Assembly (NCBI RefSeq): GCF_017356245.1
Contig: NZ_JAFMZZ010000001.1
Location: 1,693,698-1,757,697, forward strand
Direction of reading: 5' to 3'
DNA length: 64,000 nt
From: Bordetella petrii
Lineage (GTDB): Bacteria > Pseudomonadota > Gammaproteobacteria > Burkholderiales > Burkholderiaceae_B
The notes under the pieces were generated by a model. It was not told the origin of the DNA, ran no database searches, and was given only the letters and a program-made list of their open reading frames with translations. Within the stretch, counting starts at the first letter, position 1, and each line of letters opens with the position of its first letter. This document shows, piece after piece, positions 6,943-31,422 of the stretch. The position numbers and the translations under genes were made by a program.

Positions 6943-9900
6943 GTGCGCCTGACTCAACTAAAACTCGCCGGCTTCAAATCGTTCGTCGACCCCACCGTCA
7001 TTCCCGTGCCCAGCCAGCTGGTGGGCGTGGTGGGCCCCAACGGTTGCGGCAAATCCAACATCATCGACGCGGTGCGGTGGGTGCTGGGCGAGGCCAAGGC
7101 GTCGGAGCTGCGCGGCGAGTCCATGCAGGACGTCATTTTCAACGGCTCGGGCAACCGCAAGCCGGCGGCGCGCGCTTCGGTCGAAATGGTGTTCGACAAT
7201 TCCGAGGGCCGTGCCGCGGGCCAATGGAGCGCCTATTCCGAGATCGCGGTGCGGCGCGTGCTGACGCGCGACGGCACCAGCAGCTACTACGTCAACAACC
7301 AGCAGGTGCGGCGCCGCGACATCCACGACATTTTCCTGGGCACCGGCCTGGGCGCGCGCGGCTACGCCATCATCGGGCAGGGCATGATCAACCGCCTGAT
7401 CGAGGCGCGGCCCGAAGAACTGCGGGTGTTCCTCGAAGAGGCCGCCGGGGTGTCGCGCTACAAAGAGCGGCGCCGCGAAACCGAAAACCGCCTGTCCGAC
7501 ACGCGCGAGAACCTGACGCGGGTCGAAGACATCCTGCGCGAGCTGGGCTCGCAGCTTGAAAAACTGGAAGCCCAGGCCGAAGTGGCCCGCCAGTACCGCG
7601 AGCTGCAGGCCGATGGCGAAAAGAAGCAGTTCGCGCTCTGGCTGCTGAAAGAAACCGGCGCGCGCGACGAGCGCCAGCGCAAAAACCAGGACATGGCGCA
7701 GGCCCAGACCAACCTCGAAGCCGCCATCGCCAGCCTGCGTTCGGGCGAAGCCGAGCTCGAATCGCGCCGGCAGGCTCATTACGCCGCCGGCGACGCGGTG
7801 CATGCCGCGCAGGGCCAGCTGTACGAGGCCAACGCGCAGGTCAGCCGCCTGGAAGCCGAAATCCGCCATGTGGTCGATTCGCGCAACCGCCTGCAGGCCC
7901 GCCGCGAGCAGCTGCAGCAGCAGATTGCCGAATGGGACACCCAGCAGACTCATTGCGTCGAGCAGATCGCCCAGGCCGAAGACGACCTGGCCACGGGCGC
8001 CGCTCGCACCGAAGAGGCGCGCGCCCGCGCCGAAGAGGCCCAGGCCAGCCTGCCGGCCACCGAGGCCCGCGTGCGCGATGCGGCCGCCTCGCGCGACGAC
8101 ATGCGCGGCTCGCTGGCGCGGGTCGAGCAGAACCTGGCGCTGGCCGCGCAGACCCAGCGCGACGCCGACCGCCAGCTGCAAAACCTGGAACAGCGCCGCG
8201 AGCGCCTGCAGCAAGAACTGCGCGAGCTCCAGGCGCCCGATCCGGTGCGGCTGGAACAGCTGGCGGGCGACCGCGCGCAAGGCGAAGACCAGCTCGAAGA
8301 GGCCCAGCACGAACTGGCCACCCTGGAAGCCCGGGTGCCCGAGGCCGATGCCGAGCGCAGCAGCGCCCACGCGTCGGCCCAGCAAGACGCGCAAAACCTG
8401 GCCCGCCTCGAGGCGCGCCTGGCGGCCCTGGTCAAGCTGCAGGACGACGTGCAGAAGCAGGGCGCGCTGGAACCCTGGCTGGCCAAGCACGAACTGGCCG
8501 GCCTGGGGCGCCTGTGGCAAAAGCTGCACATCGAGCCCGGCTGGGAAAACGCCCTGGAATCGGTGCTGCGCGAGCGCATGGCCGCCATGGAGGTGCGCAA
8601 CCTGGATTGGTCGCGCGCCTTTGCCGAAGACGCGCCGCCGGCCCGCCTGGCGTTCTACCAGGTGCCGGCCGCCGCGCCCGCTCCGGCCGCGCCGCAGGGG
8701 CTGACGCCGCTGGCCAGCCTGCTGCGCATCACCGACCCCGATCTGCGCACGCTGCTCAACGACTGGCTGCGCAACATCTACACCGCCGCCGACCTGGGCC
8801 AGGCTCTGGCCGCGCGCGCCACCCTGCCGGCCGGCGCGGCCTGCGTGGTCAAGGCCGGCCACCTGGTGGACACCCACAGCGTGCGCTTTTATGCGCCCGA
8901 CTCCGAGCAGGCCGGCCTGCTGGCCCGCCAGCAGGAAATCGAGAACCTGCAGCGCGAGATCAAGGCGCAGCAGCTCATTGCCGACCAGGCCCGGGCGGCG
9001 GTGGCGCGCGCCGAGGCCGCCTGGCAGCAGGTGTCGCAAGCGGTGGCGCCGGCCCGCCAGCGCGTGGCCGAGGTCACGCGCCGCGTGCACGACATCCAGC
9101 TCGAACACTCGCGCCTGCAGCAGCAGGCCGAACAGTCCGGCGAACGCGCCGCGCGGCTGCGCCAGGACCTGGAAGAAATCTCCGCCCACGAAGAAGACCT
9201 GCGGGCCACGCGCGAAGAAGCCGAAGCCCGCTTCGAGACGCTGGACGCCGAGCTGGCCGAGCACCAGTCGCGTTTCGCCGATGCCGAGATCGCCGGCGAA
9301 GACCTGGCCGCCCAGGCCGAGGCCGCCCGCGCGAGCCTGCGCGAACTCGAGCGCGCGGCCCAGGAAGCCGAATTCGCCGAGCGCGGCGTGCAGTCGCGCA
9401 TCGCCGACCTGCAGCGCAACCGCCAGCTGGCCGCCGATCAGAGCCAGCGCGCCGTGGTTGAACTCGAACAGTTGCAGGCCGACCTGGCCGAACTCGACGC
9501 CTCGGCCTCGCAGGCCGGCCTGCAAGACGCCCTGGAAGCGCGCGCGGAACGCGAAGAAGCGCTGTCGCGCGCCCGCCAGGAACTCGACAACCTGTCGGCC
9601 CTGCTGCGCGGCGCCGACGAAGAACGCATGCAGCAAGAGCGCGCGCTCGAGCCGCTGCGCGCGCGCATTACCGAACTGCAGCTGCAAGAGCAGGCGGCCC
9701 GCCTGGCCGAAGAGCAGTTCACCGAGCAGCTCAACGCCCGCGAGGTCGACCGCGAGGCGCTGGCCCAAGAGCTCTCGGCCATGCCCGATGAATGGCGGCG
9801 CGCCAATTGGCTGCAGTCCGAAGTCGGGCGCATCTCGCGCCAGATCGATTCGCTGGGTTCGGTGAACCTGGCCGCGCTCGACGAGCTCAACGCCTCGCGC

Positions 9901-10473
9901 GAACGCAAGGAATTCCTCGATTCGCAGCAGCAGGACCTGCTTACCGCCATCGACACCCTGGAAGACGCCATCCGCAAGATCGACCGCGAAACCCGCGAGT
10001 TGCTGCAGGCCACTTTCGACACCGTCAATGGCCATTTCGGCGAACTGTTCCCCAAGCTGTTCGGCGGCGGCGAAGCCAAGCTGACCATGACCGGCGACGA
10101 AATCCTGGATGCGGGCGTGCAGGTCATGGCCCAGCCGCCGGGCAAGCGCAACAGCACCATCCACCTGTTGTCGGGGGGCGAAAAAGCCCTGACCGCCACC
10201 GCGCTGGTGTTCGCGCTGTTCAAACTGAACCCGGCGCCGTTCTGCCTGCTCGACGAAGTCGACGCGCCGCTGGACGACGCCAATACCGAACGCTACGCGA
10301 ACCTGGTCAGCAACATGAGCGAGCAGACCCAGTTCCTGTTCATCTCGCATAACAAGATCGCCATGCAGATGGCCAAGCAACTGGTCGGCGTTACCATGCA
10401 AGAGCAGGGGGTTTCGCGTATCGTTGCCGTAGACATTGATTCGGCCGTGCAAATGGCCGCCGAAGCCGCATAA
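6943..10473 (+). CDS. smc: SMC chromosome segregation ATPase
   Basis: 1176 residues from a GTG start; the frame stays open further upstream, but MRLTQLKLAGFKSF is the conserved SMC N-terminus. Walker A GPNGCGKS is at 31-38, followed by long coiled coil, a hinge around 500-650, a second coiled coil, and the C-terminal half of the ATPase with signature LSGGEKALTATAL and Walker B FCLLDEVDAPLDD. It dimerises through the hinge and, with ScpA/ScpB, compacts and separates daughter chromosomes. No clear ribosome site precedes the GTG. Followed by zipA and ligA in the same direction. Confidence 0.96.
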   Translation: MRLTQLKLAGFKSFVDPTVIPVPSQLVGVVGPNGCGKSNIIDAVRWVLGEAKASELRGESMQDVIFNGSGNRKPAARASVEMVFDNSEGRAAGQWSAYSEIAVRRVLTRDGTSSYYVNNQQVRRRDIHDIFLGTGLGARGYAIIGQGMINRLIEARPEELRVFLEEAAGVSRYKERRRETENRLSDTRENLTRVEDILRELGSQLEKLEAQAEVARQYRELQADGEKKQFALWLLKETGARDERQRKNQDMAQAQTNLEAAIASLRSGEAELESRRQAHYAAGDAVHAAQGQLYEANAQVSRLEAEIRHVVDSRNRLQARREQLQQQIAEWDTQQTHCVEQIAQAEDDLATGAARTEEARARAEEAQASLPATEARVRDAAASRDDMRGSLARVEQNLALAAQTQRDADRQLQNLEQRRERLQQELRELQAPDPVRLEQLAGDRAQGEDQLEEAQHELATLEARVPEADAERSSAHASAQQDAQNLARLEARLAALVKLQDDVQKQGALEPWLAKHELAGLGRLWQKLHIEPGWENALESVLRERMAAMEVRNLDWSRAFAEDAPPARLAFYQVPAAAPAPAAPQGLTPLASLLRITDPDLRTLLNDWLRNIYTAADLGQALAARATLPAGAACVVKAGHLVDTHSVRFYAPDSEQAGLLARQQEIENLQREIKAQQLIADQARAAVARAEAAWQQVSQAVAPARQRVAEVTRRVHDIQLEHSRLQQQAEQSGERAARLRQDLEEISAHEEDLRATREEAEARFETLDAELAEHQSRFADAEIAGEDLAAQAEAARASLRELERAAQEAEFAERGVQSRIADLQRNRQLAADQSQRAVVELEQLQADLAELDASASQAGLQDALEARAEREEALSRARQELDNLSALLRGADEERMQQERALEPLRARITELQLQEQAARLAEEQFTEQLNAREVDREALAQELSAMPDEWRRANWLQSEVGRISRQIDSLGSVNLAALDELNASRERKEFLDSQQQDLLTAIDTLEDAIRKIDRETRELLQATFDTVNGHFGELFPKLFGGGEAKLTMTGDEILDAGVQVMAQPPGKRNSTIHLLSGGEKALTATALVFALFKLNPAPFCLLDEVDAPLDDANTERYANLVSNMSEQTQFLFISHNKIAMQMAKQLVGVTMQEQGVSRIVAVDIDSAVQMAAEAA

Positions 10474-10530
10474 ACCGACCGGGCCTTTAGACCCTAGAAT
10501 GGCGCTGTCTTGCCGGCGCAGGATTGACAC

Positions 10531-13673
<3,143 letters not shown>

Positions 13674-17939: not shown

Positions 17940-19106
17940 ATGACGCGCAAGCATTCCGGCTTGTCTGCGGCCGCCGCGGCCGTTGCCCTGAGCCTTCCGC
18001 TGCTCGCCAGTGCGCAGGTCAAGGTGGGTGTCACCATCGCCAGCACCGGCCCCGCCGCTTCGCTGGGCATCCCCGAACGCAACACGGTGAGCCTGCTGCC
18101 CACCGAGGTGGCCGGCCAGAAAATCGAGTGGATCGTGCTGGACGACGCCACCGACACGACTCAGGCCGTGAAGAACTCGCGCAAGCTGGTGTCCGACGAC
18201 AAGGTCGACGTGCTGGTCGGCACCTCCATCACGCCGGGCTCGCTGGCCATGGTGGACGTGGCGGCCGAGGCCAAGGTGCCGATGATCAGCGTTGCCGCCA
18301 GCGCCAAGATCGTCGAGCCGGTCGATGACAAGCGCCGCTGGGTATTCAAGACCCCGCAGAATGATGCGCTGATGGCCAGCGCGCTGGCTGACGCCATGGC
18401 CAAGGGCAAGATCAAGACCCTGGGCTTCATCGGGTTCGCCGACGCCTACGGCGACAGCTGGCTGGCCGTGATGCGCGACGCCGTCAAGGGCAAGGGCATC
18501 GAGATCACCGCGGTCGAAAAATACGGCCGTACCGACACCAGCGTGACCGGCCAGGTGCTCAAGCTGATCAGCGCCAAGCCGGACGCGATCCTGATCGCCG
18601 GCGCGGGTACGCCGTCGGCGCTGCCGCAGAAAGAACTGCGCGCGCGCAATTACCAGGGCATCATCTACCAGACCCACGGCGCGGCCAATAACGACGTGCT
18701 GCGTGTCTGCGGCAAAGACTGCGAAGGCATGCTGCTGCCCGCCGGCCCGCTGCTGGTGGCCGAACAGCTGCCCGACAGCAACCCGGTGAAGAATTCGGCG
18801 CTGGCCTACACCAAGGCCTACGAGGCCAAGTACGGCGACGGTTCCACCAACACGTTCGGCGGCCATATGTGGGACGCCGGCCAGCTGATCGTGCACGCCG
18901 TGCCGGTGGCGCTCAAGAGCGGCGCCAAGCCGGGCACGCCGGAATTCCGCGCCGCCATGCGCGATGCGCTGGAAGGCATCAAGAACCTGCCCGCTTCGCA
19001 GGGCGTGTTCAACATGAGCCCCACCGACCACGCCGGCTTCGACGAGCGCGCGCGCGTCATGGTGAAGGTCGAGAAGGGCAAGTGGGTGTACCAGCCCAAC
19101 CTGTAA
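17940..19106 (+). CDS. livK: Branched-chain amino acid type ABC transporter, periplasmic binding protein
   Basis: 388 residues from ATG 17940, supported by AGGAG; the frame stays open upstream. Signal peptide ends LLASA before QVKVGVTIASTGPAASLG. Type I periplasmic binding fold of the LivK/Leu-Ile-Val class. First gene of a complete transporter: binding protein, permease, fused permease-ATPase and second ATPase. The real ligand could be an amino acid, amide or aromatic acid, since this family is broad. Confidence 0.9.
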   Translation: MTRKHSGLSAAAAAVALSLPLLASAQVKVGVTIASTGPAASLGIPERNTVSLLPTEVAGQKIEWIVLDDATDTTQAVKNSRKLVSDDKVDVLVGTSITPGSLAMVDVAAEAKVPMISVAASAKIVEPVDDKRRWVFKTPQNDALMASALADAMAKGKIKTLGFIGFADAYGDSWLAVMRDAVKGKGIEITAVEKYGRTDTSVTGQVLKLISAKPDAILIAGAGTPSALPQKELRARNYQGIIYQTHGAANNDVLRVCGKDCEGMLLPAGPLLVAEQLPDSNPVKNSALAYTKAYEAKYGDGSTNTFGGHMWDAGQLIVHAVPVALKSGAKPGTPEFRAAMRDALEGIKNLPASQGVFNMSPTDHAGFDERARVMVKVEKGKWVYQPNL

Positions 19107-19152
19107 GCCTCATGCCGCCGGCGAGGCTGCCCAGCCCGCCGGCATCACCACG

Positions 19153-19172
19153 CACCGGCCGCCAGGCCGGTG
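19153..19172. other. Stem-loop in the livK-livH gap
   Basis: CACCGGCC (19153-19160), loop GCCA, GGCCGGTG (19165-19172): perfect 8-bp stem without a U-tract. A further GC-rich hairpin around ATTGCC...GGCAAT lies about 20 bases downstream. Such structures often protect the 3' end of binding-protein mRNA and reduce expression of the permease genes; that role is inferred. Confidence 0.5.
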
Positions 19173-19243
19173 TGTCGCATTCGCAGCATTGCCCCGCCGG
19201 CGGCGCCGGCAATGCCAAGGCATCCCCTTAAGGTAGTGGTTCG

Positions 19244-20281
19244 ATGGATTTCACGATAGCGCTCATCCTGCTGCAGGACGGCATCGTCAACGGCGCCATC
19301 TATGCGCTGCTGGGCATGGCGCTGGTGCTGGTCTTCACTGTCACCCGCGTCATTTTCATTCCGCAGGGCGAGTTCGTGGCGTTCGGCGCCCTGACGCTGG
19401 CCATGCTGGTCAACGGCCGGGTGCCGGGCACCGCCTATTTGCTGCCGCTGCTGGGCGCCATCGTGCTGGTGCTGGAAATCCTGCGGGCCCTGCGCACCGG
19501 CGCCTGGTCGGCGCTGCCCAAGGTGCTGCTGACTTGCGTGGCCGTGCCGCTGGCCCTGCTGTGGCTGACCGCCGGCTATGCCGGCGAAGGCAATTCGCTG
19601 TGGCTGAACATGCTGCTGACGCTGGCGCTTATCGTGCCGATGGGGCCCATGGTGTATCGCATCGTCTACCAGCCGCTGGCCGAAGCCTCGGTGCTGGTGC
19701 TGCTGATCGTATCGGTTGCCGTGCACTTCGCCCTGACCGGCCTGGCGCTGGTGTTTTTCGGGGCCGAGGGCTGGCGCACGCCGGCCTTCGTGAGCGGGCA
19801 GATCAACATCGGCCCCGCCACCTGGTCGGCGCAGAGCCTGTTCGTGGTGGGTACCTGCATCCTGCTGATCGTGGCCCTGTGGCTGTTCTTCGATAAGACT
19901 CTGTACGGCCGCGCGCTGCGCGCCACCGCCGTCAACCGGCGCGGGGCGCGGCTGGTGGGCATCAGCACCAGCATGTCGGGCAGCCTGACTTTCACCCTGG
20001 CGGTGGCCATCGGCGCCATGTCGGGCATGCTGATCGCGCCCATCACCACGGTCTACTACGACACGGGGTTCCTGATCGGCCTGAAGGGCTTCGTGGGCGC
20101 CATCATCGGCGGGCTGGGCAGCTACCCGGTGGCGGCCGCGGGCGCGGTGCTGGTGGGCGTACTGGAATCATTCTCGTCGTTCTGGGCCAGCGCCTACAAG
20201 GAAGTGATTGTGTTCACGCTGATCATCCCGGTCCTGGTGTGGCGATCGTTCAGCAGCCACCATGCTGACGACGAGGAATAA
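19244..20281 (+). CDS. livH: Branched-chain amino acid type ABC permease LivH
   Basis: 345 residues, about 8-9 membrane helices, starting [35 protein letters not shown] as LivH proteins do, with the [23 protein letters not shown] stretch near the C-terminus. It is about 50 residues longer than typical LivH because of an extra hydrophobic segment around 60-125. Forms the membrane channel with the LivM part of the next protein, which starts 5 bp downstream. Confidence 0.92.
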
Positions 20282-20286
20282 GCACC

Positions 20287-22116
20287 ATGAACCGCATCCT
20301 GCTTATCGCATTCATCGCGCTGTTGGCCGTCTTGCCGATGGCGCCGGCCACGCCGGAATTCTGGATTACGCAGCTCAACTACATCGGGCTGGCGGCCCTG
20401 GTGGCGCTGGGCCTGGTGCTGCTGACTGGCGTGGGCGGCCTGACCTCGTTCGGCCAGGCGGCCTTCGTGGGCCTGGGCGCCTATACCACCGCCGTCATGA
20501 CCAGCCACTTCGGCGCATCGCCTTGGCTGGCCCTGCCCGTGGGGCTGCTGCTGACGGCCGTGGTGGCGTACCTGCTGGGCATCATCACGCTGCGGCTGTC
20601 CGGCCATTACCTGCCGCTGGGCACCATCGCCTGGGGCCTGTCGCTGTATTTCCTGTTCGGCAACCTGGACTGGCTGGGCAAGCACGACGGCATCGCCGGG
20701 CTCGAGCCGATCAGCGTGTTCGGCTTTTCGCTGGCCAGCGGCCGGCACATTTATTACCTGATCTGGCTGTGCCTGCTGTTGTCGTTGTGGGCCACCAGCA
20801 ACCTACTCAGCTCGCGCCCCGGGCGCGCCATCCGCGCGCTTAAAAGCGGCGCCGGCATGGCCGAGTCGATGGGCGTGAACACGGCGGCCTACAAGGTGGT
20901 GATCTTCGTCTGGGCGGCGCTGCTGGCCTGCCTGTCGGGGTGGATCTACGCGCACATGCAGCGCGCCGTCAGCCCCAGCCCGTTCGGCCTGAACTACGGC
21001 ATCGAGTATCTGTTCATGGCGGTGGTGGGCGGCGCCGGCCATGTCTGGGGCGCGGTGGTCGGCTCGGCGGTGATCCTGGGCCTGAAAGATCAGCTGCAGA
21101 ATCTGCTGCCGGCGCTGCTGGACACCGACGCCAACTTCGAACTGATCGTGTTCGGCGTGCTGCTGATCCTGGTGTTGCAGTATGCGGCCAATGGCTTGTG
21201 GCCCATTCTGTCGTCTGGCTGGGCGCGCCTGACCGGCGGCGCCGGCTCGCGCCGCAATCTGGCGCCGCCGCCCGCCGCGGCGGCCCTGGCGCAGCGCGAG
21301 CGTCCGCAGGGCGGCGCGCTGGTGCTGGAAGTGGACGCCATTCGCAAAGAGTTCGGCGGCCTGGTGGCGGTCAACGACATCTCGTTCAAAGTGCGGGCCG
21401 GCGAGATCGTCGGCCTGATCGGCCCCAACGGCGCCGGCAAGAGCACCACCTTCAACCTGATCAGCGGTGTGCTGCCGGCCACCCGCGGCCAGGTGCGCTT
21501 TCTGGGCGAGCGCATCGACGGCCAGTCGGCGCGCGAGATCGCGCGGCGCGGCGTGGGCCGTACTTTCCAGCACGTGCAGTTGCTGCCTGGCATGTCGGTG
21601 CTGGAAAACGTGGCGCTGGGCGCGCACATGCGGGCTGACGTGGGCGTGCTGGCCGGCGCGTTGCACAGCGACCGCGCGCAAGAAGCGCGGCTGCTGCACG
21701 AAGCCGCCACCCAGCTCAAGCGGGTCGGCCTGGGCGATTACCTGTACGAGCAGGCCGGCAATCTGGCGCTGGGCCAGCAGCGCATCCTGGAAATCGCCCG
21801 CGCGCTGGCCAGCGATCCGGTGCTGCTGCTGCTGGACGAGCCCGCCGCCGGGCTGCGCTACAAAGAAAAGCAGGAACTGGGCCAGGTGCTGGAACAGCTG
21901 CGCGCCGAAGGCATGAGCATCCTGCTGGTGGAACACGATATGGATTTTGTCATGCGCCTGACCAACCACCTGGTGGTGATGGATTTCGGCACCAAGCTGG
22001 CCGAAGGCGTGCCCGCCGAGGTGCAGCAGAACCCCGCCGTGCTCGAGGCATACCTGGGCGGCATCGACGACGACCTGCCGGATGCTGCCGCCCCGGCAAC
22101 CGGGAGCGCCCAATGA
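20287..22116 (+). CDS. LivM-LivG fusion: ABC permease joined to its ATPase
   Basis: 609 residues. The first 320 or so are a LivM-type permease ([41 protein letters not shown]). After a short Ala/Pro linker (about 325-343), the rest is a LivG ATPase with Walker [10 protein letters not shown], Walker [12 protein letters not shown] and switch HDMDF. The ABC signature reads LALGQQR, where serine is usually second (LSYGQQ or LSGGQ). The reading frame is continuous. An exporter-like permease-ATPase fusion is less usual for this uptake family. ATGA overlap with livF. Confidence 0.93.
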
Positions 22117-22859
22117 GCCAGGATCCGATTCTCGACGTGCGCGGGCTGAGCGCCCGTTATGGCAAGGTGGGGGCGCTTAGCGAGGCGACCCTGACAGTCG
22201 CGCCCGGCAGCATCGTGACTGTGATCGGCGCCAACGGCGCGGGCAAGTCGACCATGCTCAACGCCATGATGGGCGCGCTGCCAGGCACCGGCCACGCATC
22301 TGGCGCCGTGCGCTATGCAGGCACCGATGTGTCGGGCTGGACAGTCGAGCGGCGCGTGGCGGCCGGCATGTCGCTGGTGCCCGAGCGGCGCGAGCTGTTC
22401 GGCAGCATGTCGGTAGAAGACAACCTGCTGCTGGGCGGATTCCGCCGCTACCGGGCGCGCGAAAGCGGCTGGCGCGGCACGCTGGACGAGGTGTTCGAGC
22501 TGTTTCCGCGCTTGCGCGAACGGCGCCGCCAGGAAGCGGGCACGCTATCGGGCGGCGAGCGGCAGATGCTGGCCGTGGGCCGGGCCCTGATGGCCAAGCC
22601 GCGCCTGCTGATGCTGGACGAGCCCAGCCTGGGGCTGGCGCCGCGCATCGTGCGGGAAATTTTCCACATCATTGCGCGGCTGCGCGAAACCGGCGTGGCG
22701 ATCCTGCTGGTCGAGCAGAACGCGCGCGCCGCCCTGCAGGTGGCCGACTATGGCTATGTGCTGGAAACCGGCGAGGTGATTCTGCACGGCCCGGCGCGCG
22801 ACCTGGCCGGCAACCCGCGCGTGATCGAAAGCTACCTGGGGTTGGGCAAGACGGCTTGA
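22113..22859 (+). CDS. livF: Branched-chain amino acid type ABC ATPase LivF
   Basis: 248 residues: Walker [10 protein letters not shown], signature LSGGERQ, Walker [14 protein letters not shown], switch VEQNAR. Second ATPase of the transporter, paired with the LivG half of the fused protein. A GGGAG site precedes the ATG. Converges with the iclR gene across 51 bp that hold an imperfect hairpin (about 22875-22898) without a U-tract. Confidence 0.94.
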
Positions 22860-22910: not shown

Positions 22911-23630
22911 CTAGGCTTTGCCGCCGGGCCAGCGGCCGCCCAGCGCCTGGGTGGCCGCGGCGGCTGCCGCGCCGGCCAGCTGCGACATTTTCTTGATGGC
23001 GGCCGGCGTGAAGCGTTCTTTGGGGCCCGACAGGGAAATGGCTCCGCACATTTCGCCATCGGGGCCGAACACGGGGCAGGCCACCGCCGCGCAGTTGGGG
23101 TCGCGCTCGCCCATCGAGATCAGCGCCAGCCCGGCCTGCGCCGGCGGCTGGTGCTTGACCAGGTAGGCGGTCAGCAGCCGTCCGGCTGCGCCCTTGTCGA
23201 GCGGCAGCAGGTCGCCCACGCGGATGCGGTCGAGGGTGGAATGATGCGAATCGACGCGCAGCAGGCACACGCGCGACTGGGCATCGTGATAGGCGTGGAA
23301 CGACGCGCTTTCGGTGCCCTGGTCGACCAGCTGGCGCAGCAGCGGCTGCACGGCCTCGGTCAGGCGGTAGGTGGCTTCGTAGGCGCGCCCCAGGCGATGC
23401 GCGTAGGGGCCCAGCGCATACCGGCCATCGGCGCGCCGCACGACCAGGGCGGATTTTTCGAGCGAGGCAATGAGCCGCAGCAGCGTGCTTTTGTAGAACC
23501 CCGTGGCCCGGGACAGGTCGGCCAGGCTGATGGCGTCGGTGCGTTGGGCGATGGCATCGACGATGGCCAGGGCGCGTTCGACGGCGGCAACGCCGTCGGA
23601 AGAGGGCTCGGATTGGGGGCTGCGGCTCAT
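22911..23630 (-). CDS. IclR-family transcriptional regulator
   Basis: 239 residues. N-terminal winged helix (about 14-75: AAVERALAIVDAIAQRTDAISLADLSRATGF) and a C-terminal effector domain of GAF-like fold with a cysteine-containing ACPVFGPDGEMCGAISLSGP block. Last gene of the leftward catabolic operon, 15 bp after the dehydrogenase. IclR proteins bind palindromes as dimers; the best targets in this window are the two GTTCT-N7-AGAAC repeats near 28 kb. The effector is unknown but is presumably the pathway substrate. Confidence 0.93.
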   Translation of the reverse strand: MSRSPQSEPSSDGVAAVERALAIVDAIAQRTDAISLADLSRATGFYKSTLLRLIASLEKSALVVRRADGRYALGPYAHRLGRAYEATYRLTEAVQPLLRQLVDQGTESASFHAYHDAQSRVCLLRVDSHHSTLDRIRVGDLLPLDKGAAGRLLTAYLVKHQPPAQAGLALISMGERDPNCAAVACPVFGPDGEMCGAISLSGPKERFTPAAIKKMSQLAGAAAAAATQALGGRWPGGKA

Positions 23631-23645
23631 GGGTCGGGCAGGAAG

Positions 23646-24545
23646 TTAATCGGGGTCGGCCGGGCCGGCATCGATGCTGCGGCTGATGACCGGGAAGTAG
23701 CGGTCACCCTGGCCCTGGTCGATGGCGGCGGCGAACCAGCGCTCGACGTTGCGGGCCCCCGATGCATCCACGCCGGTTTGCGCGGCCAGAGCCAGCGCGT
23801 AGCGCAAGTCTTTGCGGGCGTACTCGACCGAGAAGGCTTTCTCGGGAAAATCCCCGGGCAGCATAGCCTTTAAGCCATGGTTGCGCAACGCGAAGCTGTC
23901 CGCCGACCCGCGGGTGAAGGTCTCGAGCAGCAGTTGCGGGTCGACGCCCGAACGCCGCGCGATGGCGCGGGCTTCGGAAAGCGCGGTCACGGTCTCGAAC
24001 AGCACCATGTTGTTCAGGATCTTCACCACCTGCCCGCTGCCCACCGGACCGCAGTGCGTGATTTCGGAGGCGAACGTCGCGATCAGCGGCTGCACCCGCG
24101 CAAACACGGCCGCATCGCCGCCCACCATCACCGACAGCGTGCCTGCCTCGGCGGCGGCGCGCGTGCGGGCCACCGGGGCGTCGATGAACAAGGCTCCCCT
24201 GGCGGCGAATTCCGCGGCCAGGGCGCGCGTCGTGTCGATGGGCGAGGTGCTGGTGTCGACGATTATCTGGCCCTGCCGCGCATGGGCCAGCAGGCCCTGC
24301 GGACCGCGCGCCACGTCGGCCACCACTTCGCCGGAAGGCAGCGACAGGAACAGGATGTCGCACTGCTGCGCGACTTCGGCCACCGAGGCGGCGGCGGCCA
24401 CGCCGTGCGCGGCCAGGCGCTGCAGAGGGGCCGGGTTGCTGTCATAGCCCAGCACCGGCAGCCCGCATTTCTGGGCCAGGTTGCGGCAGATGGGTTCGCC
24501 CATTACGCCCATGCCGATGAAGCCGGCATGCTTGAAATCTGTCAT
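23646..24545 (-). CDS. NAD(P)-dependent beta-hydroxyacid dehydrogenase (3-hydroxyisobutyrate dehydrogenase family)
   Basis: 299 residues. Rossmann motif GFIGMGVMGEPICRNL at 8-23, substrate motif DAPVARTRAAAEAGTL at 122-137 (usual form DAPVSGG), and catalytic K175 in GSGQVVKILNN. Oxidises a beta-hydroxy acid or reduces the semialdehyde. In the usual motif SGG the residues contact the substrate; here they are replaced by ART, so the substrate is probably not 3-hydroxyisobutyrate. Lies between the aldehyde dehydrogenase and iclR. Confidence 0.9.
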   Translation of the reverse strand: MTDFKHAGFIGMGVMGEPICRNLAQKCGLPVLGYDSNPAPLQRLAAHGVAAAASVAEVAQQCDILFLSLPSGEVVADVARGPQGLLAHARQGQIIVDTSTSPIDTTRALAAEFAARGALFIDAPVARTRAAAEAGTLSVMVGGDAAVFARVQPLIATFASEITHCGPVGSGQVVKILNNMVLFETVTALSEARAIARRSGVDPQLLLETFTRGSADSFALRNHGLKAMLPGDFPEKAFSVEYARKDLRYALALAAQTGVDASGARNVERWFAAAIDQGQGDRYFPVISRSIDAGPADPD

Positions 24546-24572
24546 GTGTATGGTCTCCGGAACGTGAGGGGC

Positions 24573-26039
24573 TTACATGCCCCAGTAAATGCCTTTCGAT
24601 TGCTGGTACAGGCGCAGCCCCGACAAGCCCTTCTCGCGGCCGATGCCGCTTTGCTTGAAGCCGCCGAACGGCGTGGCGATGGACAGCTGCTTGTAGGTGT
24701 TGATCCAGACGCTGCCGGCCTCGAGCTGCCGGGCCACCCGCCAGGCGCGCCGGTAATCGGCGGTCCAGATGCCCGCGGCCAGGCCGTAGGCGCTGTCGTT
24801 GGCCTGGTCGACCAGATCGTCTTCGTCGTCGAACGGCAGCACGCACAGCACCGGGCCGAAGATCTCTTCGCGCACCACGTGGGCGTCGCGTCCGAGGCCG
24901 CCCAGGATGGTGGGCAGGTAGAACGCACCCGCCTGCAGGGCCGCGGCATCGGGGCGCCGGCCGCCCAGCAGCACTTCGCCGCCCTCGGCCAGCGCGGTGC
25001 CGACCATGCCTTCGATCTTGTCGCGGTGACCGAACGAGGCGATGGGGCCCATCTGCGCGCCGTCGGCGTCGGGCAGGTCGATTTTCAGCTGCGCCGCGCG
25101 CGCCACCAGCTGCTCGATGAACGCCTGGGCGATGCCGCGCTGCACATACAGGCGCGAGCCGGCCACGCACGATTGGCCGCTGCCCTCGAAGATGCCGCCG
25201 ATCACGCTTTCGATGGCGGCCTGCTGGTCGGCATCGCCGAACACGATATGCGGCGACTTGCCGCCCAGTTCCAGCGCCACCGGCATCAGCTTGTCGGCCG
25301 CGGCGCGGGCGATGGCCCGGCCGCTGGCGGTGCCGCCAGTGAACGACACCATGCGCACACCGGGATGTTCCACCAGGCGCTTGCCGGCGGCGGCGCCCAG
25401 CCCGGTGACCACGTTCAGAATGCCCGGCGGCAGGCCGGCTTCGAGCGCGATGCGGCCCAGCTCCAGGGCCGGCGACGAGGTGACCTCCGACGGCTTAAGG
25501 ATGACGGCATTGCCAGCCGCCAGCGCCGGCGCCACCTTCTGCGCTTCCATGGTCATGGGGGAATTCCACGGCGTGATGGCCGCCACTACGCCATAGGGCT
25601 CGTACTGGGTCATCGATAAATAGTTGCCGCGGGACGGCGTGACTTCCGCGTTGAGGGTTTCGCAGACCCCCGCGTAATAGCGGAAAGTGGCGGACGCGCT
25701 GGCCACCTGGGCCTGGCATTCGCGCCAGACCTTGCCGTTCTCGATCATCTGCAGCCGCGCCAGCGTGTCGGCGTTGCGGTCCATGCCGTCGGCGATGGCG
25801 CGCAGCAGAGCGGCGCGCCTGTGCGGCAGCATGTCGCGCCAGGCGGGCTGGCGCACGGCGCGCCAGGCGGCGTCCACCGCCTGATCCACCTGTGCCTCGC
25901 CGGCCGCGCTGATCAGGAAGTTGGGCTGGCCGGTGGCGGGGTTGATGGACTCGAAGGTCGAATGCGCGTCCGCGACCCAGTTCGAGCCGATCAGCATTGG
26001 CATGGTCTGAGAGGAGGAAGATGTCTTGGTTGCTGGCAT
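24573..26039 (-). CDS. NAD(P)-dependent aldehyde dehydrogenase
   Basis: 488 residues, full length, with N159 in PWNSP, general base E257 in LELGGKSP and nucleophile C291 in GQSCVAGSR. Oxidises an aldehyde to the acid. The first twelve residues are Ser/Thr-rich and no ribosome site is evident, so M13 or M15 are alternative starts. With the neighbouring hydroxyacid dehydrogenase it could carry out a two-step alcohol to acid oxidation. Confidence 0.93.
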   Translation of the reverse strand: MPATKTSSSSQTMPMLIGSNWVADAHSTFESINPATGQPNFLISAAGEAQVDQAVDAAWRAVRQPAWRDMLPHRRAALLRAIADGMDRNADTLARLQMIENGKVWRECQAQVASASATFRYYAGVCETLNAEVTPSRGNYLSMTQYEPYGVVAAITPWNSPMTMEAQKVAPALAAGNAVILKPSEVTSSPALELGRIALEAGLPPGILNVVTGLGAAAGKRLVEHPGVRMVSFTGGTASGRAIARAAADKLMPVALELGGKSPHIVFGDADQQAAIESVIGGIFEGSGQSCVAGSRLYVQRGIAQAFIEQLVARAAQLKIDLPDADGAQMGPIASFGHRDKIEGMVGTALAEGGEVLLGGRRPDAAALQAGAFYLPTILGGLGRDAHVVREEIFGPVLCVLPFDDEDDLVDQANDSAYGLAAGIWTADYRRAWRVARQLEAGSVWINTYKQLSIATPFGGFKQSGIGREKGLSGLRLYQQSKGIYWGM

Positions 26040-26069
26040 GGCGGATGGACTAGTGGTTGAAGGTGGCTG

Positions 26070-27050
26070 TTATTTATGAACGGCGACACCGGCCTGCGTC
26101 GCCACGGTTTTCCAGCGCTGCAGTTCATCTTGCAGAAACTGCCGGAAGTCGGCACGCGTAGAATTGGTCATCGGCTCGATGCCTGCCTCGGCCAACTGTC
26201 TGACGGTGTCGGGGTCGTGCGCGGCCTTTGTGAATGCCGCGTGCAGCTTGTCGGCAATCGCGGCTGGCGTTCCCTTCGGCGCCACCACGGCAAACCAGTT
26301 CGAAGCAGCTACCTGGGGCAGGCCGAGTTCGGCGGTGGTGGGTAGATCCGGCAGGGCAGGCGACCGTTGCTTGCCGGCCACCGCCAGTCCGCGCATCCGG
26401 CCTGACTCGATGAAGCTGCGCAATGGCGGAAGATCCATGATGATGCCGTCCACGTGCCCGGCGACCACGTCGGTCGCGGCGGGCGCACCACCCTTGTATG
26501 GTACGTGGGTTACGTTTACATGGGCGGCCGTCTTGAACAATTCGATCGCCAGGTGTGGCAGCCCGCCGGTGCCGGAAGACGCCATGGTCAGGTTCTGCTT
26601 GCCGGCCAGGCGGATGAACTCGTCCAGTGTGTGCGCAGATACGGCAGGGTTGATGGCGATGACTTCAGGCGTCATGGCAACGGTACCGATACCTTCGAAA
26701 TCGCGCAACGGGTCGTAGCGGATCTCCGCCACTGTGTGTGGATTGATGGCGAGCGTGCTGGCGCTGCCCAGCAGCAGCGTGTAGCCATCGGGCGCGGCGT
26801 GCGCGACCAGATCGCTGGCGATGGCGCCATTGGCGCCGGGCCGGTTTTCCACGACCATCGGCGCGCCGAGCAGCTGGCTGGCTTTGGCGGCGACGATGCG
26901 CGCCACTACATCGTTGGACCCTCCAGCCGCGAAACCCAGTACCAGCCTCACAGGTTTGTCGGGGTAGGAAGAGGCCGCGCTGGCCGCGGCGGCCGAGAAC
27001 AGGGTTCCAGCCAGCAGGCCGCTCAGGCCCAGGCGCACGAGGTTACGCAT
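26070..27050 (-). CDS. Bug-type (TctC family) periplasmic solute receptor
   Basis: 326 residues from ATG 27048-27050 (GGAGAA site, 8-bp overlap with the preceding gene). Signal peptide ends in AASA before SSYPDKPVRLVLGFAAGGSNDVVAR, which is the Bug family hallmark. Binds organic acids, amides or similar ligands for tripartite tricarboxylate transport; the TctA/TctB membrane partners are not in this window. Similar in layout to the second receptor at 29.6 kb. Confidence 0.93.
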   Translation of the reverse strand: MRNLVRLGLSGLLAGTLFSAAAASAASSYPDKPVRLVLGFAAGGSNDVVARIVAAKASQLLGAPMVVENRPGANGAIASDLVAHAAPDGYTLLLGSASTLAINPHTVAEIRYDPLRDFEGIGTVAMTPEVIAINPAVSAHTLDEFIRLAGKQNLTMASSGTGGLPHLAIELFKTAAHVNVTHVPYKGGAPAATDVVAGHVDGIIMDLPPLRSFIESGRMRGLAVAGKQRSPALPDLPTTAELGLPQVAASNWFAVVAPKGTPAAIADKLHAAFTKAAHDPDTVRQLAEAGIEPMTNSTRADFRQFLQDELQRWKTVATQAGVAVHK

Positions 27051-27888
27051 GGCTGTTCTCCGATTGCAGGATGCCGTACGAGTTACGGACACTGTTGACG
27101 ACGTCCCGGGGCGGGGTACGGAACGGCGAATGAATGTGCTGGCTCTTGGCAAGGCCGATAGAGCGTTTCAGGCTGACCAGCGTCTGTGCGAATTTCAGGC
27201 CGCAGGCGGTCGTTTCGATGACGGGCACGCCGGTGTTGGCGATGCTGTTGAAGTTGTGCTTGACGAACGCCGGGCCGAACAGCTGGCCGCCGGCGATGAT
27301 GACGTCCGCGCCATCGGCGATGCATTCGCGGGCGGTCTTTTCGAACTCAACCAGGAATTCGTCGTCTTTGCCTTCCAGGCAGCGCACGAAGTTGTCGTAG
27401 GTCATGCCGAACTTGCGCACCGGACGCGTGGCAATAGCCTTGTCCTGGAGCCCGTAGGTGCGAATGTTGTGCTCGATGATGGGCACATAACCTTCGTGCA
27501 CCGTCAGCATGGCGAACCGGCGCCCTAGCGTCGCCGCCAGCATCATCGCCGATTCGCCCGGCCCCGCCACGGGAATCGAGGCCGCCTCGCGCGCCGCGTA
27601 TAAGCCGGGGTCCCAGTGGCCGCCGACAATGGCGCCGTCGATGCCCTGTTCTTCCATTTTCAGGATGTCATTGATGACATAAACGTCGTTGATCGTGCCC
27701 AGATACAGCGACGAGAGCAATGACGTTGTTTTTTCCAGCCAGCCGATGGTGACGGACACATCGGGACCCATGACGTGTCGCGTATAGGCCTGCAGGGTTT
27801 CATCCAGCAGGTCGCCACGCGGCGTTCGATCAGGCATTGCCTTACTCAACCCAATGGGCCAATACAGTTTCATTTTTTCACCAGACAT
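27043..27888 (-). CDS. Asp/Glu racemase superfamily protein with a single catalytic-type cysteine
   Basis: 281 residues from the ATG preceded by GAGGAG. The hydantoin racemase-like pattern is clear: GGHWDPGLYAARE at 89-101 and the C-terminal TTACGLKF at 226-233. Racemases of this fold use two cysteines; here the first position is G90 (usual form ACFxDPG), while the second, C229, is kept. A Gly/Cys combination is what arylmalonate decarboxylase uses, so this protein may be a decarboxylase or isomerase of a dicarboxylic acid rather than a racemase. First gene of the leftward catabolic operon. Confidence 0.82.
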   Translation of the reverse strand: MSGEKMKLYWPIGLSKAMPDRTPRGDLLDETLQAYTRHVMGPDVSVTIGWLEKTTSLLSSLYLGTINDVYVINDILKMEEQGIDGAIVGGHWDPGLYAAREAASIPVAGPGESAMMLAATLGRRFAMLTVHEGYVPIIEHNIRTYGLQDKAIATRPVRKFGMTYDNFVRCLEGKDDEFLVEFEKTARECIADGADVIIAGGQLFGPAFVKHNFNSIANTGVPVIETTACGLKFAQTLVSLKRSIGLAKSQHIHSPFRTPPRDVVNSVRNSYGILQSENSHA

Positions 27889-27958
27889 GATGGGAGTCTC
27901 CTCTTGTAGGTTGGTCTGTGAGTGCTGCAATCCGGCCGGCCATGACTCGCGGTTTTAT

Positions 27959-27989
27959 CGTTCTGTTAGATAGAACGTATATTCTGTTA
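27959..27989. promoter_or_regulatory. Operator-like inverted repeat, left copy, with adjacent half site
   Basis: CGTTCT (27959-27964), spacer GTTAGAT, AGAACG (27972-27977), followed by a half site ATTCTGTTA at 27981-27989. Located 71 bp before the start of the racemase-like gene. Differs from the right copy at only one base within an 18-base core. Confidence 0.65.
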
Positions 27990-28144
27990 TTGGCCATTCT
28001 GAGCCGATGGACACAGGCTTGTCAAGCATTTGCGGCCTGGCGTCGATGCCTCGCGGCCCACGCCCGCGCAGGCAGATGAATTTGAAGAGAGGCGTTGCAT
28101 CCTGGGTTCAGGCAGGATAGGATTGCTTCATAAAGAGAATGACT

Positions 28145-28161
28145 GTTCTGTTAGAAAGAAC
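28145..28161. promoter_or_regulatory. Operator-like inverted repeat, right copy
   Basis: GTTCT (28145-28149), spacer GTTAGAA, AGAAC (28157-28161), 26 bp before the PrpD-like start, a position suited to repression. The conserved spacer GTTAGA shows it is a copy of the left site and not chance. Confidence 0.65.
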
Positions 28162-28187
28162 GATAAGCAATAGGAGCTGAATAGGAA

Positions 28188-29549
28188 ATGGCGAGCACCG
28201 ATCAAGGCTTAGTAGCGCAGGACATGGCGCATTTCGCGGTCGACGCGGCATGGGACAGCCTGCCGGAACCAGTGCGTCGCGAGGCGGCCAGGGCGTGGTT
28301 GAACTGGGTGGCGTGCGCGATCGGTGGCGCTCGCACCGCGACGATGGACGCGGCCGTGCGAGGCTCGCAATCGATGCAGGCGCATGGTGATGTGCCGGTC
28401 CTGGGGCGCCTCGAGCGGACGAGCGTGACGGATGCGGCATTGCTCGGGTGCCTGAGTTCTTCGACGCACACCTACGATGACACTCATCTCGCCACCATCA
28501 CACACCCCACGGGTCCGGTGGCGTCTGCCGCGCTTGCCGTCGCGGCCAGGTTGTCCGCCCAGGGAAGGCCGGTGCAAGGTGCGCATCTTCTGGCGGCACT
28601 GGCCGTGGGGCTGGAGTTGACTTGCCGCACCAGTTGCGCCATTGCCGGACGCAGCAGCAAGGGTTGGTACATGACTGGTTTGTCCGGCGGCATCGGGGCC
28701 GCCGCGGCCGCTGGCCGCCTGCTGGGGCTGGACCGCGAACAAATGGAGGCGGCGATCGGCCTGGCGGCTGCGCAAGGGTGCGGTTTTCGGGCCACGCACG
28801 GCAGTATGGCCATCGCGTATGTGCCTGGGCTGGCGGCGCGCAACGGAGTGGCTGCCGCCTACATGGCGGCCGGCGGCTTCGAATGCAGCACCCATGCCGT
28901 GGATGGCAAATATGGCCTGCTGGACGTGCTGACGGGCGGCACCGATGCCGGGCCGATCCGGGATGGGCTCGGTCGGCGCTATGAGTTCCTGAACAACACG
29001 TACAAACCCTATCCGTGCGGCATTGTGATCCATCCAACCATCGATGCCTGCCTGGCGTTGTATCGCGAAGATGGAGTGCGGCCCGAAGACATTATTGGCG
29101 TCGAGCTGCGCGTGCACCCGGACGCGCTCAACCTGACATGGCGGAAGTTGCCCGACACCGTGCTCGATGCGCAGGTAAGCCTGTTCCATTGGGCCGCTGT
29201 GGTATTGGCGCGCGGCGCCGCGGGCGTCGCCCAAGGCGAAATCGATTGCGTCATGGACAGCCAGGTTCGCGGCCTGCAATCGAACATGCATGCCGAGGCA
29301 GACCCAGACCTGGCCGATAACCAGGCCATGGTGGTGGTCCGGCTGCGCAATGGAAAGGCCCGCGAACGGTTCACGCGGAACGCCATCGGCAGTGTCACCA
29401 ATCCGATGACCGACGCGCAATTGGCCGGCAAATTCAGCGAATTGGTCACGCCGGTGCTGGGCGAGGCGGCCTCGGCACGATGGCTGCAGGCTTGCGTGGC
29501 GATCGAACAGGCCGCTGATGCGGCCGAGATCGCCCAGCAGGCACATTGA
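28188..29549 (+). CDS. MmgE/PrpD-family protein
   Basis: 453 residues, with the helical domain typical of 2-methylcitrate dehydratase relatives (STHTYDDTHLATITHPTGP, GLAAAQGCGFRATHGSMA, KPYPCGIVIHPTIDACL). The family includes dehydratases, cis-aconitate decarboxylase and iminodisuccinate epimerase, acting on di- and tricarboxylic acids. No other propionate (prp) genes are adjacent, so 2-methylcitrate is unlikely; a dicarboxylate handled together with the racemase-like enzyme is more plausible. First gene of the rightward operon, with AGGAG and AGGAA before the ATG. Confidence 0.88.
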   Translation: MASTDQGLVAQDMAHFAVDAAWDSLPEPVRREAARAWLNWVACAIGGARTATMDAAVRGSQSMQAHGDVPVLGRLERTSVTDAALLGCLSSSTHTYDDTHLATITHPTGPVASAALAVAARLSAQGRPVQGAHLLAALAVGLELTCRTSCAIAGRSSKGWYMTGLSGGIGAAAAAGRLLGLDREQMEAAIGLAAAQGCGFRATHGSMAIAYVPGLAARNGVAAAYMAAGGFECSTHAVDGKYGLLDVLTGGTDAGPIRDGLGRRYEFLNNTYKPYPCGIVIHPTIDACLALYREDGVRPEDIIGVELRVHPDALNLTWRKLPDTVLDAQVSLFHWAAVVLARGAAGVAQGEIDCVMDSQVRGLQSNMHAEADPDLADNQAMVVVRLRNGKARERFTRNAIGSVTNPMTDAQLAGKFSELVTPVLGEAASARWLQACVAIEQAADAAEIAQQAH

Positions 29550-29583
29550 ACACCTCACAACTACATATTCTCAGGAGACAGTC

Positions 29584-30576
29584 ATGAATTGGTTTCGTAT
29601 CCGTTCCTGGCGCGCGGCGGCGCTGGCCGGCGCCGTGTCGTTGGCGCCAATGGCTTCCGCGGGCGCACAGCCGGATCATTTTCCCGACAGGCCAATCACG
29701 CTGGTGGTGGGTTTTTCCGCTGGCGGGTCGAACGATATCGTCGCGCGTGCGATTTCGCAGCCGCTGGGGCGAATACTGGGTGTGCCCGTAGTGGTTGAAA
29801 ACCGTGTGGGCGCAGCAGGCATGATCGGCACGGCCCACGTGGCCAAGGCCGATCCCGACGGCTACACCCTGATGGTGGCCAGCGCCAGCCCCGTAGTCGT
29901 CTCGCCCCATACTCAAGCCCACATGGCGTACGATGCCAAGAAAGACTTCGCTGCAATCAGCCTGGTTGGCATCACTCCCGAAGCGCTGGCGGTACACCCC
30001 AAGTTTCCCGCCAAGAATCTGGCCGAACTGATCGCGCTGGCCAAGACCCGGGAAATCACGCTGGCTTCGTCGGGCAGCGGAGGGTTGCCGCATCTGGCGA
30101 TCGAACTCTTCAAGAGCGCCGCGCCGGATACGAAGATCATCCATGTGCCCTACAAGGGCGCCGCGCCCGCGGTTGCCGATACTCTGGCAGGGCATGTCGA
30201 CGGCGTCGTCGTGGATTTGCCGGCCGTCTACAACCATATCCTGGGCGGACGATTGCAGGGCATTGCGCTGGCCAATGACGCCAGGTCGGAGTTCTTGCCA
30301 GACCTGCCCACTTCGGGTGAACAGGGCCTGCCGCGCTTCGTGGCCGTCAACTGGATAGGCCTGCTGGCGCCGGCCAGGACGCCAGGGCCGGTCATCGACA
30401 AGTTGCACGCCGCGTTGCTGGCCGTGATGAAGCAGCCGGAAGTCAGGCAAACCCTGGCGCAATCGGCCGTGCAGGTGTCGGTAAGCGATTCGCCGGCCGC
30501 GTTCCAGAAATTCTTGAATGACGAATACGAAAAATGGGGCGAGGTCGTGAAGGCATCTGGCGCGAAAGCCGACTGA
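29584..30576 (+). CDS. Bug-type (TctC family) periplasmic solute receptor, second copy
   Basis: 330 residues from ATG 29584 (AGGAG site). Signal peptide ends near ASAGAQ before PDHFPDRPITLVVGFSAGGSNDIVAR. Clearly homologous to the receptor at 26.1-27.1 kb, including a shared ASSG-GGLPHLAIELFK block, so a duplication followed by divergence between the two operons is likely. Cotranscribed with the PrpD-like and hydrolase genes. Confidence 0.93.
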   Translation: MNWFRIRSWRAAALAGAVSLAPMASAGAQPDHFPDRPITLVVGFSAGGSNDIVARAISQPLGRILGVPVVVENRVGAAGMIGTAHVAKADPDGYTLMVASASPVVVSPHTQAHMAYDAKKDFAAISLVGITPEALAVHPKFPAKNLAELIALAKTREITLASSGSGGLPHLAIELFKSAAPDTKIIHVPYKGAAPAVADTLAGHVDGVVVDLPAVYNHILGGRLQGIALANDARSEFLPDLPTSGEQGLPRFVAVNWIGLLAPARTPGPVIDKLHAALLAVMKQPEVRQTLAQSAVQVSVSDSPAAFQKFLNDEYEKWGEVVKASGAKAD

Positions 30577-30612
30577 CCAGCGCCGCCGGGCAAGCCAGAC
30601 AGGAGAACTCCC

Positions 30613-31422
30613 TTGATCATGCCGGAATACGAAGTCTACGCCATCCGCTATGCGCGCATGGACCGGTCGCGCGTCGCCAACTTCCTGGGGGGAGATCCGC
30701 ACGACGGCCCCATGCCGATGGATTTCTTCGTCTGGCTGGTGCGAGGCGCCGGCCGGTGCGTCCTGGTCGACACCGGGTTTTCCGCCGAGACCGCCGCGCG
30801 TCGCCAGCGTGAGATGCTGCGCTGCCCACTGGACGGGCTGGCAAGGCTGGGCGTGAAGCCGGAACTGATCAGCGATGTCGTGCTGACTCATCTGCACTAC
30901 GATCACGCTGGCAACCTGGCAAAGGTGCCACACGCCCGGCTGCATGTGCAGGATGATGAAATGGACTACGCCACCGGGCGCTGCATGTGCCATGGCGCCT
31001 TGCGCCATGCCTACGAAGTCGAGGACGTGGTTACCCTGGTGCGCCGCGTCTATGACGATCGCGTGGTGTTTCACGATGGCGACGCCGTGCTGTATCCCGG
31101 CATCGAACTGCTGAAGATCGGCGGGCATACCAAGGGACTGCAAGCCGTGCGGGTGCACACCGGGCGCGGCTGGGTGGTGCTGGCGTCCGATGCCAGCCAC
31201 TACTATGAAAACATGGATAGCGGCCGGCCATTTCCCATTGTGTTCAACGTGGCAGACATGCTGGCTGGCCACGTGCGTGTGCGGCAGGCCGCCAGTAGCG
31301 CCGCACACGTGGTGCCGGGACACGATCCGCAGGTATTGGCGCGTTACGGCCGCTACCAGAATGACCCTGACATCGCCGTCTTGCACCAGCCGCCGGTTCA
31401 GGACGGCACGGCCCGGTCCTGA
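30613..31422 (+). CDS. Metallo-beta-lactamase-fold hydrolase, N-acyl-homoserine lactonase family
   Basis: 269 residues from a TTG start; AGGAG is 7 bases before the TTG but 13 before the next ATG (30619), so TTG is preferred. Metal ligands H93, H95, D97 and H98 are in THLHYDHAGN; further ligands are likely in the GGHTKG (third His), ASDASH and PGHDP motifs. The fold opens lactones and thioesters. Within this operon a catabolic lactone or ester hydrolase is more likely than quorum quenching. Its TGA directly abuts the stop of the converging aminotransferase gene. Confidence 0.88.
   Translation: MIMPEYEVYAIRYARMDRSRVANFLGGDPHDGPMPMDFFVWLVRGAGRCVLVDTGFSAETAARRQREMLRCPLDGLARLGVKPELISDVVLTHLHYDHAGNLAKVPHARLHVQDDEMDYATGRCMCHGALRHAYEVEDVVTLVRRVYDDRVVFHDGDAVLYPGIELLKIGGHTKGLQAVRVHTGRGWVVLASDASHYYENMDSGRPFPIVFNVADMLAGHVRVRQAASSAAHVVPGHDPQVLARYGRYQNDPDIAVLHQPPVQDGTARS

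Follow-up and report, generated by a model that had tools for sequence, protein, structure and literature searches.

BlcR, the repressor of the gamma-butyrolactone genes of Agrobacterium, is a member of the IclR family; among the enzymes of its operon, BlcA is a succinate-semialdehyde dehydrogenase (SSADH) and BlcB a hydroxybutyrate dehydrogenase, the latter belonging to a family other than the HIBADH-type beta-hydroxyacid dehydrogenases. In this BlcR/BlcABC system (AttJ/AttKLM), the repressor is combined with a metallo-lactonase, and the lactone is converted into the hydroxyacid and further into the semialdehyde (PMC5924552; this and the other papers cited are drawn on in part). By analogy, a similar logic with different enzymes is proposed for eight genes at positions 22,911 to 31,422 of a 64,000-nucleotide stretch of Bordetella petrii DNA (contig NZ_JAFMZZ010000001.1), the whole of which is termed the window. 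These genes probably serve one programme, in which a conserved core of an IclR-family regulator, a HIBADH-family dehydrogenase and an aldehyde dehydrogenase (ALDH) is joined by exchangeable receptor-enzyme units carrying the same putative operator. The locus is not the Blc operon itself. The two are alike in the repressor, the metallo-lactonase and the lactone-to-semialdehyde logic (PMC5924552), and the IclR family is also found in the window by Pfam. However, the metallo-beta-lactamase-fold (MBL) hydrolase of the window, although of the same fold, scores 57 bits on the AttM model against a cut-off of 390, its ALDH scores 366 bits on the SSADH model against 646, and its dehydrogenase is of the HIBADH instead of the BlcB family, so that membership was rejected on all three counts; the window moreover adds an MmgE protein, a racemase-fold protein and two Bug receptors, arranged in two arms with operators of their own.

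Other described systems approach the locus in single aspects. Three-box operators of the GTT-11-AAC subgroup, with the half-site GTTYCRY, have been reported for the IclR-family regulators PcaU, PobR and HmgR (PMC8222616). The sites of the window resemble them in the 17-base palindrome and the third box upstream of the target genes, whereas their half-site reads NTTCTGTTA in place of the published one, and no regulon with this half-site was found in the part of the main text of PMC8222616 that was covered. An ALDH and a COG2084 3-hydroxyacid dehydrogenase are predicted under another regulator in the Betaproteobacterial aromatic regulons, where the set differs (PMC6449761). The itaconate/methylsuccinate cluster also includes an MmgE/PrpD enzyme and, in C. 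necator, a TTT receptor gene nearby, but it possesses a CoA-transferase, a hydratase, a lyase and an acyl-CoA dehydrogenase that are lacking in the window, and the active site of its MmgE enzyme differs from that of the window (PMC12290011). The preliminary description of the locus, made from the sequence, had stated that no described pathway contains this exact set; in agreement with it, none was found in the main texts of the open-licence literature, and a description elsewhere is possible.

For the comparison with relatives, genomes were sampled evenly, 200 within the family and 369 within the order, and all figures of rarity refer to these samples (genomes are numbered with G, loci with L and contigs with C). 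Six of the eight proteins served as queries in the family search, the two Bug receptors being left out, and 51 stretches were compared; which proteins count as orthologues varies with the E-value thresholds applied, and IclR orthologues are those among the matches listed. Since the gene caller truncates or misses genes in less GC-rich relatives (e.g., L035, L036, L044-L048 and L126), absences there are not taken as evidence. Orthologues of the ALDH (at least 67% identity) occur in 34 of the 200 family genomes, and in 33 of these both an IclR and a HIBADH orthologue lie within 8 kb of it, G070 being the exception with neither nearby; the clustering of the core genes thus exceeds chance. The IclR orthologues beside the core genes show 61-94% identity (33 of 34 genomes), and 23 of the 33 core genomes have an MBL orthologue no more than 20 kb away. 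In the Candidimonas genome G063, which is probably C. nitroreducens since its locus coincides in position with the named locus L020, the order is rearranged, with IclR on the other side of the MBL gene. On sequence comparison, IclR-HIBADH-ALDH is the conserved core across the family and MBL is its frequent companion, so the set could not be upheld as one fixed pathway, the remaining parts being exchangeable.

In the gene-neighbourhood comparison recommended in the preliminary description, the core recurs as stated above and the modules of the MmgE and racemase-fold genes are rare. MmgE orthologues (E 1e-90 or better) were found in 8 of the 200 family genomes, and close copies of the racemase-fold gene (at least 79%) in three (own genome, G063 and G094), a scan of named genomes giving two loci for the latter. 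At the order level, MmgE was detected in the own genome, in G015 and, at 41%, in G512, and the racemase-fold gene in the own genome only; the G512 protein carries H and D at the first two active-site positions (by eye) and has other neighbours, and it was therefore rejected as a member of the same subfamily. The left Bug gene follows the racemase-fold gene in all three genomes with a close copy, and the right Bug gene follows MmgE in five of seven relatives' loci (L028, L029, L038, L039 and L042; not L040 or L041). Five of the eight genomes with MmgE also contain the core (P 0.004 by the hypergeometric test, 0.015 when the own genome is left out, kinship being uncorrected). In same-genus relatives (L053-L059, and likewise G191 and L061-L062), the flanks are kept wholly or partly and the middle differs, which marks the locus as a variable slot. 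The hydrolase arm of many relatives consists of a 130-residue protein, an alpha/beta-hydrolase, LivKHMGF and MBL; in the window this hydrolase-Liv arm is absent, MmgE-Bug stands before MBL instead, and racemase-Bug is inserted before ALDH. The 130-residue protein that opens the hydrolase-Liv-MBL arm (L061:17699-18094 and orthologues) has no Pfam or NCBIfam match. Some relatives hold an acyl-CoA carboxylase/beta-oxidation/CoA-transferase set within the locus. In G100, this carboxylase/beta-oxidation operon (L127, G100:C1:122000-136000) is situated outside the locus beside another ALDH, with a three-mismatch operator match before its receptor gene. Judged from these gene contents, the racemase-fold and MmgE modules are rare, exchangeable plug-ins on the core.

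Comparison of the ALDH-upstream stretches of relatives revealed a site of three half-sites, GTTCTnTTnnAnAGAACnnnnnTTCTnTT, which was found (at least 13 of 19 scored positions) in 29 of 32 such stretches; of the misses, L037, L043 and L064, the last two have the site elsewhere in the locus. In the window, both sites fall in the intergenic region between the racemase-fold and MmgE genes, and none precedes ALDH. With up to three mismatches, the full pattern matched only these two sites in the own genome (4.95 Mb), and a reversed-pattern control gave zero, while the 17-base core with up to two mismatches produced four strand-hits in the window (two sites) against 0.14 expected. A weight matrix built from the sites of 28 relatives, with the window excluded, gave both operators the scores listed in Table 1, compared with 4.8 bits for the best of 20 approximate dinucleotide shuffles. 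A scan of 904,006 bases (relatives plus window) with this matrix yielded 68 sites, the window's two included, all of which are intergenic by our own gene calls, which miss genes in less GC-rich relatives; one of them belongs to a locus, L044, from which the core is absent. When 37 relatives were searched whole, a match was present in 34 (not in G070, G094 and G193), with 82 strand-matches against 18 for the reversed control, many three-mismatch ones among which may be noise. The operator precedes, in relatives, the core, the MBL arm, or MmgE-Bug and racemase-Bug units apart from the core. Because the site is accompanied by a regulator orthologue in most loci, we infer that this IclR protein binds both sites. 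The preliminary description would have given up the idea of a single cluster on evidence that the arms are not co-regulated; on the contrary, an IclR-type operator, at which binding is predicted, stands before each of the two arms, and the shared operator suggests that the arms belong together.

The strongest grounds for assigning the eight genes, probably, to one programme come from sites in trans, since MmgE-Bug and racemase-Bug units carry the site away from the core. MmgE-Bug units far from the core bear it in G061 (0 mismatches) and G028 (1 mismatch), and the site stands before or beside MmgE in six of the eight MmgE genomes (own, G063, G015, G061, G028 and G017). In Candidimonas (G063, 5.6 Mb), the 17-base core with up to one mismatch occurs in two places only (reversed control, 3 hits), one between MmgE and ALDH and the other, on another contig, 326 bases before a lone racemase-Bug pair, which stands amid housekeeping genes. 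The contig of G094 (L021) begins inside the racemase-fold gene, the upstream region lying outside the sequence. In G017 (L042, G017:C153), the operator precedes MBL-MmgE-Bug, and no HIBADH or ALDH match was obtained in this genome at the cut-offs used.

The HIBADH-family protein of the window reaches no NCBIfam equivalog cut-off. Its catalytic Lys (KxxNN motif) is present, GPVGSGQVVKILNN, and its substrate motif is ART, where the solved relatives listed show SGG, TGG or SGT; ART or MRT occurs in 28 of 35 HIBADH sequences, window included, and the motif was not found in the other seven. For the ALDH, no cut-off was reached among the 25 of 44 NCBIfam families listed, and the Cys and Glu motifs are present in 34 of 35 sequences including that of the window. 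All 24 MBL sequences, the window's among them, display the motifs HxHxDH, GGH, SDASH and PGHD, and the best solved relative is 8x78. The own genome has a second MBL-HIBADH pair beside another Liv operon. MmgE/PrpD genes are also gathered in a second island (L075, L076; C4:845000-884999 of the own genome), which harbors four complete copies and a portion of a fifth. It further includes three MBL hydrolases, a Liv operon, an FMN oxidoreductase, a PEP-mutase/isocitrate-lyase-family gene and two dehydrogenases of the HIBADH type, of which one has the MRT motif and the other SGG. As for the Bug receptors, at least 150 TctC/Bug matches above cut-off were counted in the own genome (150 of 172 candidates scored).

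Arylmalonate decarboxylase possesses a single catalytic Cys, at the second of the two catalytic positions of the racemases. In the racemase-fold protein of the window, aligned to racemases, both positions are Gly, which includes the position of the decarboxylase Cys (as placed by alignment to racemases rather than to the decarboxylase itself), and the protein differs in this respect from the allantoin/hydantoin racemases 3qvj and 5lfd. The earlier label "racemase/decarboxylase-like" is thus retained as to the Pfam family and lost as to the catalytic residues; with no Cys at either position, both a racemase and an arylmalonate-decarboxylase-like identity were rejected. OpaE (9qbx), described as an atypical racemase-family epimerase (PMC12661438), was discarded as a model for the Cys-free form, having Cys at both positions in an alignment by eye. 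Among distant Asp/Glu-racemase-fold proteins of the family (L004-L019), 16 of 17 lack both catalytic cysteines and one keeps the first, which makes the racemase annotation doubtful for them.

The reading that we favour, with confidence falling slightly short of an even balance, is a regulon in which IclR governs the breakdown of an organic acid of lactone or ester type. The two Bug receptors would capture the substrate or substrates, the MBL hydrolase would open a lactone or ester to give a hydroxyacid, the HIBADH-family enzyme would oxidise its primary alcohol to an aldehyde-acid, and ALDH would turn the latter into a dicarboxylic acid; uptake, hydrolysis and the two oxidations, in this presumed order, would form the most economical chain. 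MmgE and the racemase-fold protein would prepare this strain's special substrate, whether by isomerisation or in another way, and the IclR protein, assumed to be a repressor, would probably repress both arms and release them on binding an intermediate of the pathway. In relatives, the same switch would drive a different front end, comprising a Liv-type ABC transporter and an alpha/beta-hydrolase. The acyl-CoA carboxylase/beta-oxidation/CoA-transferase set in some loci suggests that the product may be a dicarboxylate activatable to a CoA ester. Gamma- or epsilon-lactones, pantolactone, mevalonolactone and tropate-like beta-hydroxyacids are what we take to be candidate substrates, none of which is adopted.

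Several observations weigh against this reading. The 17-base core with one mismatch is also present at two other positions of the own genome (C1:106797 and C4:429519); the racemase site of Candidimonas, at 22.4 bits, has a displaced third box and for that reason escaped the longer pattern; and the MmgE genes of G173 and G193 have no site within the loci examined. The matches listed include no IclR protein at E 1e-35 or better for G017, where another regulator may read the site or the draft genome may be without the IclR gene. The promoter-like element next to operator 1, which bears on the assumed repression, was observed once against 1.4 expected by chance. An MBL orthologue is missing within 20 kb in 10 of the 33 core genomes, so MBL hydrolysis may not be obligatory; the catalytic-Lys pattern matched 21 of 35 HIBADH sequences, part of which are fragments, and the changed substrate motif renders a family-based guess at the substrate unsafe. 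The best NCBIfam matches of the MBL protein are N-acyl homoserine lactone (AHL) lactonases, as would be expected if it were such a lactonase and the cluster mainly degraded quorum signals, but the scores on lactonase models, those of AHL lactonases included, are all far below cut-off (best, 66 bits against 375), so that other hydrolase chemistry is equally possible. Aldehyde and hydroxyacid dehydrogenases with two Bug receptors under the same operators suit carbon use better, and quorum quenching is considered highly improbable.

The preliminary description had proposed a tri- or dicarboxylate route. In such a route, MmgE would isomerise or dehydrate a C4-backbone dicarboxylate in the manner of methylsuccinate isomerase, IDS epimerase, cis-aconitate decarboxylase or PrpD. 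Carboxylates are frequent ligands of Bug receptors, the sequence belongs to the MmgE/PrpD family with IDS epimerase as the nearest solved sequence, and the structure model (pLDDT 89) displays the MmgE/PrpD fold, models having served for the fold only and residues having been judged from alignments. Against this, the window protein has S, T, H, Y, I and K at H85, D88, H99, H150, K198 and K266 (IDS epimerase numbers), and S at Y145, a residue of two epimerases/isomerases; only H99 and K266 are retained, and five of the seven published residues differ in the window as well as in 6 of 6 complete relatives. A 2025 study links such residues to the shared dicarboxylate and, in the part covered, describes them as conserved in all MmgE/PrpD proteins (PMC12290011). 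With most of these carboxylate-coordinating residues substituted, membership among the dicarboxylate MmgE enzymes was rejected despite fold and domains, the assignment to a di/tricarboxylate enzyme of known type was not supported, and the route appears unlikely. As a side observation, the MmgE gene beside the core in G015 (L028, about 9143-10700) reads in two frames, reflecting a broken gene or a sequencing error. A mosaic, in which racemase-Bug and MmgE-Bug handle unrelated substrates and have come to share the promoter region only through insertion, and in which IclR-HIBADH-ALDH, with or without MBL, is the true pathway, would agree with the rarity of both units (3/200 and 8/200) against a common core, with the isolated Candidimonas pair and with the two MmgE genomes devoid of the site; yet both units bear the same operator away from the core, which insertion beside a promoter does not explain, and we hold such a mosaic to be improbable.

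Within the favoured regulon, it is conceivable, though we lean against it, that the pathway is an undescribed one, in which an MmgE protein with a pocket rebuilt for substrates other than C4 dicarboxylates and a cysteine-free racemase-fold protein would perform reactions new to their families, feeding the lactonase/beta-hydroxyacid dehydrogenase/ALDH core via interchangeable, operator-tagged front ends.

Table 1. Genes and predicted regulatory elements of the locus, in window coordinates
Feature	Position	Strand	Remarks
IclR-family regulator	22911..23630	-	last gene of the leftward arm; PF01614/PF09339
Beta-hydroxyacid dehydrogenase (HIBADH family)	23646..24545	-	PF03446/PF14833; ART replaces SGG-type substrate motif
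Aldehyde dehydrogenase (ALDH)	24573..26039	-	PF00171; catalytic Cys and Glu motifs present
Left Bug/TctC solute receptor	26070..27050	-	PF03401
Asp/Glu-racemase-fold protein	27043..27888	-	PF01177; ATG start behind AGGAG; without the two catalytic cysteines
Putative operator 1, three-box IclR type	27960..27990	+	precedes leftward arm; 47.8 bits; 0 pattern mismatches
Promoter-like TTGACA-N18-CAGAAT	27996..28025	-	upstream of operator 1; weak
Putative operator 2, three-box IclR type	28131..28161	-	precedes rightward arm; 39.5 bits; 2 pattern mismatches
MmgE/PrpD-family protein	28188..29549	+	PF03972/PF19305; altered active site
Right Bug/TctC solute receptor	29584..30576	+	PF03401
Metallo-beta-lactamase-fold (MBL) hydrolase, lactonase-like	30613 (TTG) or 30619 (ATG)..31422	+	PF00753; metal-ligand motifs present

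All eight genes are present as first described, tightly packed in two divergent arms with the IclR regulator (Table 1). The gaps within the arms amount to 15, 27, 30, -8, 34, and 36 or 42 bases, and 27 bases separate the end of operator 2 from the MmgE start. A convergent aminotransferase gene (31423) directly abuts the MBL gene and, with a glycine-betaine-type receptor, makes up the right flank, the left flank being a Liv-type transporter operon (17940-22859). Rfam gave no matches in the window at gathering thresholds, and terminator and promoter scans remained at or below chance level.

The MmgE group of the window departs, within a conserved operon, from the residue rule as given in the part of PMC12290011 covered. 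What had been a vague acid cluster becomes a testable regulon, with one candidate regulator, one putative operator and a gene set traceable across genomes by means of that operator. Meanwhile, the plug-in architecture suggests how a catabolic core can gain substrates by acquiring small receptor-enzyme cassettes pre-tagged with the right operator.

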